Under the pieces are notes generated by a model that did no database searches, was not told the DNA's origin, and saw nothing but the letters and a program-made list of their open reading frames with translations. A program made the translations under genes and the position numbers. 64,000 bases of DNA from positions 124,001 to 188,000 of the forward strand of contig NGFI01000013.1 in assembly GCA_002215645.1 (NCBI GenBank), in the 5' to 3' direction. Source of the DNA: Gemmatimonadetes bacterium 2013_60CM_65_52 (GTDB taxonomy: Bacteria; Gemmatimonadota; Gemmatimonadetes; Gemmatimonadales; Gemmatimonadaceae). The stretch's first letter is position 1, and each line of letters opens with the position of its first letter. Positions 29,378 to 36,640 of the stretch are shown here, piece by piece.

Positions 29378-29785
29378 TCAGGGCTTGCGATCCTTGCGGA
29401 GGTCGCGGCGGTCGGTGCGGACGTCGCGGTGATCGGCGCGGACGTCGCGGTGATCGGCGCGAAGGTCGCCCGCGTCCTTGCGCATGTCCTTCCGAATTGC
29501 GCGTGCGGCGGCCGTGTCATGTGATGCGACGGCACTCTTGAGCGCCACGGCGTCGCCGCGGGAATCGGTACGATCAGCGGCGATGTCCTTGTGGTCGGCG
29601 CGCAGGTCCGTCCGGTCCGTGCGTACTTCGCGGCGGTCGGCTCTCAGTCCGCGCCGATCCTGCCGCACATCCCGCCTATCCTGGCGGACGTCTCGGCTCG
29701 GCGCAGAGACGGCAGACTGTGCCGACAGTGTTCCGACAGCACTCAGAAGCATGACTCCAGCGAGAAACGATCTGAGGTTCAACAT
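29378..29785 (-). CDS. Secreted DRRD-repeat protein
   Basis: 135 residues with signal peptide (1-23, LSAQSA) and a ribosome site GGAGA before ATG 29785. The mature chain is almost entirely a charged repeat of seven residues: DVRQDRRDVRQDRRGLRADRREVRTDR and, near the end, DVRADHRDVRTDRRDLRKD. Arg and Asp alternate so that a helix would have matched charges on each face. A central linker (AVALKSAVASHDTAAARAIRKD) interrupts the repeat. The sequence suggests a single long charged helix in the periplasm; role unknown. Confidence 0.75.
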   Translation of the reverse strand: MLNLRSFLAGVMLLSAVGTLSAQSAVSAPSRDVRQDRRDVRQDRRGLRADRREVRTDRTDLRADHKDIAADRTDSRGDAVALKSAVASHDTAAARAIRKDMRKDAGDLRADHRDVRADHRDVRTDRRDLRKDRKP

Positions 29786-31022: not shown

Positions 31023-31700
31023 CTATGGTGAACCCACCAGGACAGCGGGAAAGAGATCCGTCTGCGGCAGCGAGGGCTCGAGCCGCTGCCGGACCCGATT
31101 CGCGATGTGCTCGATGGCCGAGGTGTCGCTCACGAGGTCGTAGCCGCGGACGTCGAGGCTCAGCACCGGACACGCCGTGAACGTGGCGATCCACCGCTCA
31201 TAGCGCGCGTGCAGCGCCGCCCAATAGCTCGCTGCGGTGTCCCGCTCGCTTGGCCGGCCGCGGGCCCGAATGCGCTGGACGACGATGTCCAACGGTGCGT
31301 GGAGATACACGAGCAGCTTCGGAGGGCGTGCCGCGGGCGAATGCAGCAGCTCCACGTAAAGGCGCCGGTACAGCGTCCACTCCTGCGCGGACATGAGGCC
31401 CTCCTCGAAGTGTCCGCGAGCAAAGATTTCAGCGTCCTCGTACCACGTGCGGTCCAGCACCCAACTGCCGCCCGATCCGCGCATACGGCGCATACTCTCG
31501 AATCGCGTGGCGAGAAAGTGGAGCTGCAGCGGAAGCGCGTATGCACGCATGTCCGCCTCACCGCCGCCATAGAACTTCTCGAGCCACGGATTGTCGCCCT
31601 CCACGCTCTCGAGCGCGAGCTGCAGCCCGAAGCGCGCGGCGAGCGCGCGCGTGAGCGTGCTCTTTCCCGAGCCCACCATGCCAGCGACGCCAATCAACAT
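31023..31700 (-). CDS. Deoxynucleoside kinase
   Basis: 225 residues of the dNK/dGK family, which phosphorylates deoxynucleosides with ATP. Visible are the P-loop GMVGSGKST (7-15), the acceptor-site motif DRTWYEDAEIFA containing the catalytic DR pair, and the arginine-rich lid RIRARGRPSERD. Cytosolic, with no signal. Together with deoC elsewhere in the window it suggests salvage of deoxynucleosides, although the two loci are far apart. ATG at 31700. It lies 45 bases from the end of the Rieske operon on the same strand, so read-through from that operon is possible. Confidence 0.9.
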   Translation of the reverse strand: MLIGVAGMVGSGKSTLTRALAARFGLQLALESVEGDNPWLEKFYGGGEADMRAYALPLQLHFLATRFESMRRMRGSGGSWVLDRTWYEDAEIFARGHFEEGLMSAQEWTLYRRLYVELLHSPAARPPKLLVYLHAPLDIVVQRIRARGRPSERDTAASYWAALHARYERWIATFTACPVLSLDVRGYDLVSDTSAIEHIANRVRQRLEPSLPQTDLFPAVLVGSP

Positions 31701-31746: not shown

Positions 31747-32184
31747 CTAGCCGATCGTCAGCGTATCCGTTGCGGCGTCGTACCGCGCGGTCAGCGTGGG
31801 AAGGTTGGTTCCCGCGGGGCCGACGGTGACGCGGCCACCGTTGTCGAAGCGCGAGCCATGGCAGTCGCACTCGAACCGGTTGCTTCGAATGAAAGTCGGA
31901 CAGCCTTCGTGTGTACACACCATCGAGAGCGCGAGGAACGACGTCGGGCCGGTACGCTTGGCCGCCACGAACTGTGCCGGCGGACCGATCTGTACGAGCT
32001 GGCCCACGGTGCCGAGCGCGGGCACCGACGAAACGACGATCGAGAACGTGCCGCCCGCCGGCGTGACGGCCTGGGGACCGAACTGTCCGTCTCCGCAGCC
32101 AGCCGCAACCGCCGCGGCGCCCACGACCACCAGTGTGCTGCGCGTAAGAAACTCTCGGCGGCTGAGACAATCCTTGCAGGGCAT
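31747..32184 (-). CDS. Rieske [2Fe-2S] protein, Tat-exported
   Basis: 145 residues from ATG 32184. The N-terminus has a twin-arginine motif (SRREFLTRS) and a hydrophobic stretch ending in AAAVAAGC, which could serve as a lipobox. The cluster motif is complete: CTHEGC, then CDCHGSRFD 15 residues on, supplying two Cys and two His. A Rieske centre transfers single electrons at the membrane surface. It is the last gene of a four-gene operon with a second Rieske protein and two membrane proteins. The partner oxidoreductase is not evident. Confidence 0.9.
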   Translation of the reverse strand: MPCKDCLSRREFLTRSTLVVVGAAAVAAGCGDGQFGPQAVTPAGGTFSIVVSSVPALGTVGQLVQIGPPAQFVAAKRTGPTSFLALSMVCTHEGCPTFIRSNRFECDCHGSRFDNGGRVTVGPAGTNLPTLTARYDAATDTLTIG

Positions 32185-32210
32185 GATCGACGGGATGGAG
32201 GGACGAGCGC

Positions 32211-32750
32211 TCAGGGAAGCGTGATCACGGCCTGCTGCCAATGCGCGAGATCGAGGTCTTCCTGATACAGGGTGTCGATGTCCACGGAGACGTTCGTCCC
32301 CGCGAGCTTCACCGCGTAACGATCCATGCTGCGTGTTGCGCGCCCTTCGATGAAGGTGCCGTCAGGACGATACCTCGACTTGTGCTTCGGGCATTGGAAG
32401 CGATTGTCCCCGCCTTCCCAGCGCAACGCCGTGTTCTGATGCGGGCACGCCAGGGCGAACGCGTACACCGCCTTACCCACACGCGCGAGAATCACCTCGT
32501 TGTCCTTGTCGATCTGTACGCCGTCGCCACTCGGGACGGGATACAGCTTTTCCTGGCGCGTACCACCCCACGCGGAGATCCAGCGCAGTGGCGCGGCCTC
32601 GGCAGCGCCGGGAGCCACTCCCAGCGCCACGAGCGCGGCGACGCCGGCCTTGAAGGCGTCGAGCAGGAAGGCTCTGCGATCAGTGGCGACACATCCACCG
32701 CAGGGAGATCCCTCGATGGCACGCGGCGCCGGTGTATCGGTCACGGTCAC
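32211..32750 (-). CDS. Second Rieske [2Fe-2S] protein, Tat-type leader
   Basis: 179 residues starting at GTG 32750, which overlaps the previous stop (GTGA) and has AAGGAG five bases upstream. The leader contains a twin-arginine-like DRRAFLLDAFKAG and a hydrophobic run ending near AAEAAPLR. The cluster motif is CPHQNTALRW...FQCPKHKSRY, with CxH and CxxH about 17 residues apart, normal for a Rieske site. A segment CGGC near the N-terminus adds two Cys. It belongs to the same operon as the first Rieske gene and two membrane proteins, so it probably passes electrons to or from a membrane-bound carrier. Confidence 0.9.
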   Translation of the reverse strand: MTVTDTPAPRAIEGSPCGGCVATDRRAFLLDAFKAGVAALVALGVAPGAAEAAPLRWISAWGGTRQEKLYPVPSGDGVQIDKDNEVILARVGKAVYAFALACPHQNTALRWEGGDNRFQCPKHKSRYRPDGTFIEGRATRSMDRYAVKLAGTNVSVDIDTLYQEDLDLAHWQQAVITLP

Positions 32751-33262
32751 GAAAACTCCTTGAGCACGACGCCCGCGAGCGTCGTTGTCAGCCAGAGAAC
32801 GGCACTGAACATTGCAACGAGCCGAAGCCGCTCCCACAGCGCGTCGTCATTCTGCCGTCCGGAGAGTGCCTCCTCCGTGCGCAGCATCACGTAACCGTTC
32901 ACGAGCAGGAGCGTCACAAGACTGATCTTGATCCAGAACAGAATGGTGCCCAGGAACGTTTCGACGTCCGACAGGAACATCAGGACGCCGGAGACGAGCG
33001 ACAGCGTGAGCCCGGCGAGCACGGCCCGGTGAATGCCGGACAGCTCCACCAGGTGAGCGGCGCGCTCTTCGGCGCCGGCGCGAGACGCCCGGAGGGTCGC
33101 GCGATCCATCAGAAACGCGGCGCCGGCGCCGAAGACGAGCGGAGCGAGGTGAAGAAAGAGCACAGTAGCCGATACTACCTTCGAGTGGGCATATAGTTTC
33201 GCCCACGGATCGACCGCGTTGGCCAGCGCGTGCCCAAACCCACCTTCAGAGGCTGCTGTCAT
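32747..33262 (-). CDS. Membrane protein with His-containing helices
   Basis: 171 residues from ATG 33262, with four hydrophobic helices: VSATVLFLHLAPLVFGAGAAF, AVLAGLTLSLVSGVLMFLSD (first helices abbreviated here to their core), TILFWIKISLVTLLLVNGYV and LVAMFSAVLWLTTTLAGVVL. Histidines occur at helix ends (LYAHSK, LFLHLA, GIHRAV), as in b-type haem membrane proteins, but no named family is recognised. Its stop overlaps the GTG start of the second Rieske gene by four bases. It starts ten bases after the stop of the first membrane gene. Role in electron transfer is inferred from the operon. Confidence 0.8.
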   Translation of the reverse strand: MTAASEGGFGHALANAVDPWAKLYAHSKVVSATVLFLHLAPLVFGAGAAFLMDRATLRASRAGAEERAAHLVELSGIHRAVLAGLTLSLVSGVLMFLSDVETFLGTILFWIKISLVTLLLVNGYVMLRTEEALSGRQNDDALWERLRLVAMFSAVLWLTTTLAGVVLKEFS

Positions 33263-33272
33263 CGTCGTGGTC

Positions 33273-33863
33273 TCACTCCTCGTTCCAGAATGCCATGATC
33301 GCGATACCCGTGAGCGCCGTCGCCATCGAGGCGTACGCGAGATCGCGATGCTCCCGCCGCTTGCTCTCGCTCGTCTCGGCCTGCTCGGACAAGCGGGCTC
33401 CGGCGTAGGTGAAGCCGGCGTCCGACGCCAGCATGCACAACGCATGCAGGTATTGCTTCGTCCGGCCCTGTTCGACCGCGCGCGAGTCCCAGAGATTCCA
33501 GAGGCCGGTAACGGTATTCGAGGTGAATACGAGTGCCAGTGCGGTGGCGCCGGCGCGGTGGGTGGTCTTTGCCCATGCCGGCGCCACGCCGGGATCCTTG
33601 ATGATCTGATTTCCTGCGATGGCCTGCGCCGCGAACAGGGGATAGACCAGATACGAGCCGTATCGGTGAATCCGGAGTCGCCGCTCGTACCAGTCACTTA
33701 CCTCGATGGCCCTGCGCCGTCGGCGCACCGTGTCGTCCGGCACGCGCACGGCGACGGCAAGCCCCGTCACGGTTGGACCGACAGGCGTCTGAGCCGCCGG
33801 CTCCATGGTGGTATCAGGAGCGGCCAGTGCGAGGACGAGCGCGAGGACGGCGGAAGCGGGCAT
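33273..33863 (-). CDS. Membrane protein, cytochrome b561-like pattern
   Basis: 196 residues from ATG 33863, with an N-terminal signal-like helix and about four further hydrophobic segments. Histidines are spaced along it: RIHRYGSYLVYP, TTHRAGATALALV, QYLHALCMLASD and RREHRDLAYAS. Four His in membrane helices is the pattern seen in di-haem cytochrome b561-type proteins, so it may bind haem. That is an inference from spacing and needs spectroscopy. It is the first gene of the operon leading to the two Rieske proteins; its start is 105 bases from the divergent hybrid kinase. Confidence 0.75.
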   Translation of the reverse strand: MPASAVLALVLALAAPDTTMEPAAQTPVGPTVTGLAVAVRVPDDTVRRRRRAIEVSDWYERRLRIHRYGSYLVYPLFAAQAIAGNQIIKDPGVAPAWAKTTHRAGATALALVFTSNTVTGLWNLWDSRAVEQGRTKQYLHALCMLASDAGFTYAGARLSEQAETSESKRREHRDLAYASMATALTGIAIMAFWNEE

Positions 33864-33967: not shown

Positions 33968-36640
33968 TTGATACCATTCACCCCGAAGACGCCGACAACC
34001 CTCTACGACCCAGCTTCACCGCCGCGCGCCACGCGGCAGGGGCTGAGCATCCAGACACGCCTGCTCGCGCTGGTTGCGGCGGCGGCACTTCCGCTCATCA
34101 TCTTCGGGTTGGCGGAGATGCGACTCGCCAACCGCAAGGCGCGCGACGCGGCCCACCAGGCCTCCCTTCAGTTTGCGCGCCGAATCGCAGCGGGGGTCGA
34201 CGATCATGTGAGTGTCATCGATGCTTCGCTGTTGACCCTCACCCGGACACTGCGCATCGACCCGCGACGGCCGGCCGCGAATGATGCGATCATCGCGGCC
34301 GTGAGCAAGGAGCTGGGCGTACGATTCCGCGAAGTGTTCGTGGCGGACCCCGCAGGCCGAGTCATAGGACTCTCGTCGGGCTCAGCAGCGACGCTGAAGC
34401 TGAACATTGCCGACCGGAAGTACTTCAAGGATGCCATCGCATCCCCAGGCATCGCCGTCGGCGATCCCGTCATCGGACGCATCAGGCACGAATACACCAT
34501 CGGCCTCGCGCGGGCCATTCGCGATTCGTCCAACCGGGTGCGAGCCGTCGTGGCCACATCCACGTCGCTTGCACTCCTGTCCAGCATCCTCGTGCCGAAG
34601 GATCTGCCGCCCCGGGCGGTCGTCTCGTTGATGAACGAGCGCGGCGTGATCGTCCTGCGGACGCCCGATCAGGCCAATCTCACGGGAAAGAGCCTCGACT
34701 CGCTGCCGCAGATACGCGCGCTGCTTGCCCAGCGTGAAGGCGTAGAGGAGGGGAACAGCCTGAACGGGGTCCCTCGCGTGCTCGGATTCACGACGGCCAG
34801 GCGGGTTCCGTGGCACGTGTTCGTGAACATTCCCAGCGACGTCGCCATGAGCGGCGTGCGCGAGGAAACGAGAAACGCGCTGTTGCTGGTCACCGCGTCG
34901 CTGATCCTGAGCCTCGGGCTCGCGTGGTTCTTCTCTCGCCGAATCAGCGACCCCATCACCACGCTCACGAGAGATGCGGCAGCGTTCGGTGAAGGCGATC
35001 TCGGACATCGGACACCCACGCGGGCGACGGGCGAGCTCGGGCGCCTCTCCGAAACGTTCAATCGCATGGCGGCCGCGCTCGAGCGCCGCTCGGCCGAGCT
35101 CACGCAGAGCGAGCATCGGTATCGCGACCTCTTCGACAAGCTTCCGCTTCCGCTCTGGGTCTACGACGTCGACACGCTGCGATTCCTGGCGGTGAACGAG
35201 GCGGCGCTGACGCAGTACGGCTACTCGCGCGAGGAATTCCTGGGTGGCATGACGGTCGTGGACATCAGGCCGCACGAGGATCGGGAGCGGTTTCTGAGCG
35301 CCGTTCGCACGGTCAGCCGCGGGCCTGTCCAGGCACAGTCGTGGCACCACCGCACGAAGGACGGCGAGATTCGCGACGTCGAAATCAGCTCCGACGACAT
35401 CGTCGCCGACGGCGTGCGCGCCCGGCTGGTGGTCGCGATCGACGTGACCACCCGGAACCGGACCGAGGCCGCGTTGCATGCGTCCCAGGAGCAGTTGCGG
35501 CAGTCCCAGAAGATGGAAGCGGTCGGCAGCCTTGCCGGAGGCATCGCCCACGACTTCAACAACCTGTTGACCGCCATCCTCGGCTATTGCGACCTCGCGC
35601 TCGAGGGCGAGTCCGGTCAGGAGAGCATAACCGAGATTCGCCAGGCCGCGCTGCGCGCCTCGGAACTCACGAAACAACTGCTCGCGTTCAGCCGGCGGCA
35701 GATGCTCAAGCCCTCGGTGTTTCCGCTCAACGATGCCGTCGAATCTGCAGACCGCATCCTCCGTCGCCTTATTCCCGAGAGCATCGAGCTCGAGCTCGCG
35801 CTCGCCGCGACCGGATCGCGCATTCTGGCCGATCCGTCGCAGGTGGAGCAGGTGATCATCAATCTTGCGGTCAACGCGCGCGATGCCATGCCGCGGGGCG
35901 GCAACCTGATCATCGGCACCGCGGTCGCACAGCTCCCTGTGCCACTCGTCGTCGCGGGTGCTACGCTCCCTCCGGGGCGCTACGCGACGCTGACCGTGAC
36001 CGACACGGGCACCGGCATCGATCCGCAGATCAGCGATCGTCTGTTCGAGCCGTTCTTCACCACCAAGGAGCGCGGCCATGGCACCGGACTGGGACTTGCA
36101 ACGGTGTACGGCATCGTCAAACAGAGCGAGGGAGGTGTGAGCGTGAGATCCTCGCTCGGTCGTGGCTCGACGTTCACCGCGTACTTCCCTCTCGTGCAGT
36201 CCGTTGAAGAGGCGCATGTCGCTACCGGGGGCAGTGATGCCCCGTCACGTGGCGACGGCACCATTCTGCTGGCCGAGGATGACGACGCGGTGCGAGCGAT
36301 CGCGCAGGTCGTGCTCGAGCGCGCCGGCTATCGCGTCCTCGCGGCGCCGGACGGAGCGAGCGCGCTCGCACTTGCCGATGAGCACGAGGAACAGCTCGAC
36401 CTGCTGTTGACCGACGTCATCATGCCCGGGATGAACGGCCGAGAGCTGGCGGAAGCGCTCACATCGCGCCGGCCAGGCCTGCCCGTGCTGTTCGTGTCGG
36501 GATACACCGACAACGCGCTCAAGGGACTCGGGCTCCTCTCGAGTGAGCACGCCCTGCTCGACAAGCCCTTTACGCCAGCGTCGCTGACCGGTGCCGTGGC
36601 AGCGATCCTCCGCGGCACCGGCATCGCGGGTCGCGCATGA
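33968..36640 (+). CDS. Membrane hybrid histidine kinase: dCache-HAMP-PAS-HisKA-HATPase-REC
   Basis: 890 residues from a TTG at 33968; no ATG or GTG precedes the first membrane helix (31-50), so the start is less certain. A dCache-like sensor (about 55-300) lies outside the membrane, followed by a second helix (303-323), HAMP (324-376), PAS (380-495) and an NtrB-like kinase core with His528 in [10 protein letters not shown]-box [10 protein letters not shown] and GTGLGLAT. A receiver ends the protein ([20 protein letters not shown]). The extracellular ligand is probably a small organic molecule, as is usual for dCache. Its stop overlaps the start of the next gene (ATGA), which encodes a possible phosphotransfer protein. 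Confidence 0.93.

Follow-up and report, generated by a model that had tools for sequence, protein, structure and literature searches.

A recurrent Gemmatimonadota gene cluster encoding two different Rieske proteins and two four-helix membrane proteins with conserved histidines

In a Gemmatimonadota bacterium of soil type, two different Rieske proteins with Tat-type leaders are encoded side by side with two four-helix membrane proteins bearing conserved histidines, and the recurrence of this gene set in relatives indicates that it is a functional unit. The reading favoured here, in which moderate confidence can be placed, is that of a small quinol-linked membrane cytochrome pair exchanging electrons with two periplasmic Rieske carriers. 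It builds on the observed gene set, sequence motifs, export signals, conservation and co-occurrence, as well as on four-helix structural models.

Gene organisation and neighbourhood

The cluster occupies positions 31747-33863 of the window, i.e. the whole stretch of 64,000 nucleotides that was analysed, as four back-to-back ORFs on the minus strand in the order A-B-C-D. Gene A (33273-33863, minus strand) encodes a 196-aa membrane protein with four transmembrane (TM) helices, predicted to be a b561-like di-haem protein, and gene B (32747-33262, minus strand) a 171-aa membrane protein, also with four TM helices and a putative distant relative of HemJ/DUF2214/DUF6644. They are followed by gene C (32211-32750, minus strand), which has a GTG start and encodes a 179-aa Tat Rieske protein, and by gene D (31747-32184, minus strand), encoding a 145-aa Tat Rieske protein with a lipobox. 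All the ORFs of the four-gene set described in the sequence-only reading, namely two different Rieske proteins and two histidine-containing membrane proteins, are found at these coordinates. With a gap of 10 bp between A and B, an overlap of 4 bp between B and C and a gap of 26 bp between C and D, the spacing is operon-like; a sigma-70 promoter and terminator scan of the cluster gave no signal above shuffled sequence.

Upstream, a sensor histidine kinase gene divergent from A begins at 33968. Downstream, a deoxynucleoside-kinase-like gene (31023-31700, minus strand) lies on the same strand 46 bp after D, and its homologues occur near an A-D-type cluster in 15 distinct loci, mostly of the nearest relatives; it is probably a neighbour and no part of the module, possibly co-transcribed with the cluster in these lineages. 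Further away in the window, a small exported-looking protein (29378-29785) consists almost wholly of charged repeats of the RxDRRDxRxDRR type, and a few related genomes encode a relative of it close to the cluster.

Linkage and distribution of the gene set

Among 60 related genomes, B was found in 31 and A in 30, while C and D homologues were present in 43 and 45 genomes, respectively, these two counts including other Rieske proteins. Across the phylum, A occurs in 90 of the 297 genomes sampled, belonging to at least six families, and further families of the same class carry ABC or ABCD. All 80 named A loci, which were fetched with the A profile in a scan driven by one peptide pattern and not strictly excluding other phyla, are of Gemmatimonadota type, including Longimicrobiaceae, one record being titled only 'bacterium'. 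No B homologue was found in plasmid records.

Gene make-up was counted in the 61 A loci uncut by a contig end, where ABCD dominates (30 loci), followed by ABC (9), ADBC (7), AD (7), AC (2) and A alone (2), with ACD, BACD, ABACD and ABCDA seen once each. That the genes might separate in relatives had been put forward in the sequence-only reading as a way to refute it; instead, a Rieske gene of the C or D family adjoins A in 59/61 loci and A, B and C stand together in 49/61. B is nearly always accompanied by C (the exceptions being loci L146 and L157), and B and C may both be missing where A and D are present. Since AD-only and ABC-only versions exist, two half-modules are suggested, one pairing A with D and the other B with C, which are usually combined. 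Cluster flanks are common only within lineages, and no conserved partner, electron donor or electron acceptor gene was seen in the flanks of relatives beyond lineage-specific neighbours. A gene order that varies, a set that stays constant and flanks that are lineage-bound point to a functional unit rather than to frozen synteny.

The Rieske proteins C and D

The sequence-only reading had noted intact Rieske motifs and Tat-type leaders in both proteins, and both observations hold. The [2Fe-2S] ligands are complete in C (boxes at 32382-32447, minus strand, C102-P-H104 and C120-P-K-H123, within CPH(QNT)...CPKH(KS)) as well as in D (31858-31917, minus strand, C90-T-H92 and C106-D-C-H109, within CTH(EGC)...CDCH(GS)), and the two proteins score 36.2 and 35.9 bits against PF00355, above its cut-off of 20.3. 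They stay below the bc1/b6f equivalogs, with 33.6 bits for C against Cytb6fFeSPetC (cut-off 250) and 48.5 bits for D against TIGR01416 (cut-off 97.4). Twin arginines (RR25-26 in C, RR9-10 in D) are invariant in the alignments of C and D homologues.

C lacks both disulfide cysteines typical of high-potential Rieske proteins, which the D of the window has. The second-sphere Ser and Tyr are kept in C (CPKH-[KH]-S-x-Y); in yeast, such residues raise the Rieske potential by 130 and 65 mV, as reported in a study of Kuenenia Rieske proteins including Kustd1480 (PMC12954380). Kustd1480 (9rk3) is also the nearest solved relative of C, the b6f Rieske protein being near as well. An A-x-A stretch follows the hydrophobic segment in 64/80 C sequences. 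A 580-aa 'C' in locus L236 looks like a fusion protein, but its ORF runs into a masked stretch and gives no evidence for one.

As for D, its nearest solved relatives in the PDB are AioB Rieske subunits. Its Tat signal and lipobox (cysteine C30, invariant in the D alignment) predict an exported lipoprotein, and in a count over 62 D homologues a lipobox-like cysteine is found in 60. The disulfide is missing from most D homologues, whose tuning positions are Ala/Phe (36/62), the window D showing a disulfide + Ser + Phe pattern; since D varies in this way, its potential may differ between homologues, and with it the C-to-D order. The long D (270-287 aa) of six loci constitutes a double-Rieske protein.

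Both leaders contain a CxxC just before the twin arginines (CGGC at 32691-32702 in C, CKDC at 32167-32178 in D), within the portion of the Tat leader expected to remain cytoplasmic. This feature was read in 62 of 91 Tat-like N-termini of the loci, and all 62 appear to belong to C/D-family Rieske proteins; perhaps it serves cluster insertion or proofreading. In the window genome, a 514-aa hydrolase-like exported protein (L283:636-2180, G000:C9) bears a D-like Tat/lipoprotein signal, the two leaders being 78% identical over 36 residues in otherwise unrelated proteins. Another genome (G030) encodes, apart from its ABC cluster, a 495-aa exported protein (L285:2448-3935) with two D-like Rieske domains and repeat domains between them.

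The membrane proteins A and B

In the AlphaFold2 model of A (pLDDT 84.9), four long helices span residues 57-89, 96-126, 134-162 and 166-192, each with one invariant or nearly invariant histidine near its N-terminus, namely H66, H102, H140 and H172. Orthologues without the histidines of A and B had been named in the sequence-only reading as a possible refutation, and none of the counts goes that way: in 100 A homologues, H66, H140 and H172 are His in 100/100 and H102 is His in 98/100 and Met in 2/100, and in B both H38 and H78 are kept in 78/78 homologues. Methionine is also a possible haem ligand. Conservation of these key histidines is far above chance.

The model of A places H66 and H140 on one side of the membrane and H102 and H172 on the other, and the charge bias of Arg/Lys-rich loops puts the N-terminal linker and loop 2-3 inside. 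All four histidines face the conserved side of their helix (offsets of -4, -2, -16 and -31 degrees, the histidine itself being left out of the calculation), as required for a buried cofactor. In b561-type cytochromes, bis-His haems are held across helices 1-3 and 2-4; the likeness of A to this arrangement is one of helix and histidine pattern.

B is likewise modelled as four long helices (AlphaFold2, pLDDT 94.1), with loops 1-2 and 3-4 placed inside by their Arg/Lys-rich charge bias. Besides H38 and H78, residues D53, K112, N122, S153 and W157 are invariant among the 78 homologues, the other histidines being variable. H38 and H78 lie at different depths judged by helix position and therefore probably do not ligate one common haem.

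Profile matches of both proteins are below the Pfam cut-offs. A scores 15.7 bits against DUF4079 (cut-off 31.4), and B 16.3-17.9 bits against cut-offs of about 34, including 16.3 bits for HemJ (UPF0093; cut-off 34.2). Scanned singly, members of the A family hit DUF4079 in 17/34 cases (E up to 0.1; best 1.2e-4) and Ni_hydr_CYTB in 2/34, and those of the B family hit DUF2214 in 21/31 (best 1.5e-5), UPF0093/HemJ in 17/31 (2e-5), DUF6644 in 11/31 (2.2e-6) and CopD in 4/31. That these weak matches arise by chance was rejected on the basis of controls in which residues were shuffled within 10-residue blocks, keeping hydropathy: none of ten copies of A matched DUF4079 or Ni_hydr_CYTB, and none of ten copies of B matched DUF2214, UPF0093/HemJ, DUF6644 or CopD. 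A weak profile alignment of B with the HemJ of Gemmatimonadota (single-pair P 0.018) brings the helices into register and sets H38 on the TM1 His and K112 on the TM3 Lys of HemJ. Foldseek searches against solved structures gave no significant match for A (best E 0.22) or B (best E 0.064), and neither did PDB profile searches with either protein; four-helix bundles, moreover, match many things in structure searches. Hence family membership is not claimed, and what is claimed is a likeness of A to di-haem proteins of DUF4079/b561 type and of B to HemJ/DUF2214/CopD-type families. The idea that A and B are mutual duplicates is unsupported (profile comparison, P 0.078).

Respiratory context of the genome

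A PF00033-type search, which gave positive matches in eight control genomes, revealed no homologue of cytochrome b, either among A-D or anywhere in the window genome. By inspection, proteins A-D have no CxxCH motif, and no recurrent c-type cytochrome gene was seen beside the cluster in relatives, so the earlier statement that this is not a bc1 operon stands on the missing cytochrome b and CxxCH. The window genome yields eight Rieske matches, and those read besides C and D, which are an oxygenase, flavoprotein- or FAD-linked enzymes and a Suf-linked ferredoxin-like protein, include nothing bc1-like. Elsewhere (G000:C9), the genome carries a complete alternative complex III-like cluster composed of a five-CxxCH cytochrome, a 1034-aa ActB-like protein, NrfD, an ActD-like protein, a mono-haem cytochrome c and a second membrane subunit. 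In the 60 relatives examined, 10 of the 31 B-bearing genomes also have bc1 and some genomes have neither; the negative association of B with bc1 (P 0.037) is lost once the genus of the window is left out (Fisher P 0.39). Given that the genome also encodes an ActA-F-like cluster and that no anticorrelation with bc1 is seen outside the genus, the A-D module is probably an addition to the respiratory chain rather than its complex III. Of note, neither HemJ nor HemY was found above cut-off in the window genome, where the protoporphyrinogen oxidase step is consequently not covered by these two families.

Proposed mechanism and alternative explanations

As we picture it, A would be a b561-like cytochrome with four helices, whose two b haems provide an electron wire through the membrane: H66 and H140, where helices 1 and 3 begin on what charge bias marks as the cytoplasmic side, would clamp one haem, and H102 and H172, where helices 2 and 4 begin on the periplasmic side, the other. 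B would act as a second four-helix subunit, of HemJ/DUF2214 type, in which H38 and K112 may form one haem or quinone site toward the periplasm. C, a Tat-exported and probably cleaved Rieske protein, and D, a Tat-exported Rieske lipoprotein, would both serve as periplasmic one-electron carriers. The likeliest flow would run from the quinol pool (menaquinol is assumed) to A/B, then to C, D and a periplasmic acceptor such as a cytochrome c. Haem, quinone, complex formation and the order and direction of electron flow are what we infer here. The sequence-only reading had proposed a small alternative electron-transfer complex, of which the conserved histidines and the gene linkage are confirmed, the haem, the complex and its partners remaining at the level of prediction.

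Electrons might instead flow the other way, from a periplasmic enzyme or compound through the Rieske proteins and A/B into the quinone pool, as with arsenite oxidase and similar dehydrogenases. The AioB subunits found as best solved relatives of D, the disulfide + Ser + Phe pattern of the window D and the fact that the direction of two-haem membrane cytochromes differs between enzymes (PMC4807273) all agree with it, but the flanks in relatives show no recurrent dehydrogenase, molybdenum-containing or other, and this direction appears unlikely. Another role, very unlikely in our estimation, would make A-D the complex III of the organism, an energy-conserving quinol:cytochrome c reductase in place of bc1. 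Such a role would fit a module of possible quinol-type membrane cytochromes with Rieske proteins in a genus where cytochrome b is absent, both from the window genome and from the ten genomes searched. As the main reading, a complex III substitute was nevertheless rejected, in view of the complete alternative complex III-like cluster that this genome also carries and of an anticorrelation with bc1 that does not extend beyond the genus, bc1 coexisting with the module in 10/31 relatives and some having neither; besides, no Q-cycle cytochrome is visible.

The membrane pair could also deal with tetrapyrroles or metals, B being a HemJ-like protoporphyrinogen oxidase or a CopD-like metal carrier for which the Rieske proteins would act as electron acceptors. 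This is quite unlikely: B is closest to the HemJ/DUF2214/DUF6644/CopD profiles, its TM1 His and TM3 Lys align, if weakly, with those of HemJ, and neither HemJ nor HemY scores above cut-off in the window genome, but B is present in just 31/60 relatives, though all presumably make haem, it coexists with HemJ in some genomes (G030, G012) and it misses the NE-P stretch of the last HemJ helix. Finally, the histidines of A and B might bind a non-haem ligand, such as iron, copper or quinone, in proteins acting as membrane oxidases, sensors or Rieske anchors. The matches of A and B to haem-protein families are indeed sub-threshold, and DUF4079 itself is named in one paper of the open-access literature searched, which gives it no function; against this, b561 cytochromes typically show one histidine per helix with pairs 1-3 and 2-4, and anchoring hardly accounts for near-invariant histidines. 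A non-haem role is very unlikely.

Novelty and relation to known systems

No description of such a gene cluster of Rieske and four-helix membrane proteins was found in the open-access literature searched; the Rieske, b561-like and HemJ-like families are known, and it is their fixed combination that is undescribed there. Rieske proteins that operate alongside membrane-bound haem have essentially been described only in cytochrome b complexes. Tentatively, the module may represent an undescribed kind of quinol-linked complex, so far seen only in Gemmatimonadota, where Rieske proteins would connect to four-helix cytochromes of b561 and HemJ type instead of cytochrome b. If true, it would offer quinones a separate link to Rieske carriers in the periplasm and assign functions to membrane families whose role is at present listed as unknown; there is a fair chance of its going beyond a fixed combination of known families if the haem and quinol chemistry are shown.

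Like bc1 and b6f complexes, the cluster places a Tat-exported Rieske protein beside membrane electron-transfer proteins, but it has neither cytochrome b (PF00033) nor c-type cytochrome, and contains two different Rieske proteins, one of them a lipoprotein, together with two 4-TM proteins of other families. With b561, DUF4079 and Ni_hydr_CYTB proteins, A has in common a four-helix core, one histidine per helix and the putative 1-3/2-4 arrangement, whereas it scores below the Pfam cut-offs and its partners are Rieske proteins, not ascorbate, DOMON domains or a hydrogenase or formate dehydrogenase. B is similar to HemJ (UPF0093)/DUF2214/DUF6644/CopD proteins in its size and its four helices, with the TM1 His and TM3 Lys perhaps corresponding as well; it differs by its sub-threshold scores, its own invariant H78, D53 and W157 and its fixed Rieske neighbour, and in some of these genomes HemJ has a separate gene. 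C and D share the Rieske domain and ligands with AioB of arsenite oxidase and with bc1/b6f Rieske proteins, yet they fall short of the equivalog cut-offs, and no AioA (the molybdenum subunit) lies beside the cluster in the window or recurs in relatives. Alternative complex III, encoded in the same genome, would be comparable for a quinol oxidation that does not involve bc1; its genes are entirely different, the ActA-F set being absent from A-D and present additionally at G000:C9.
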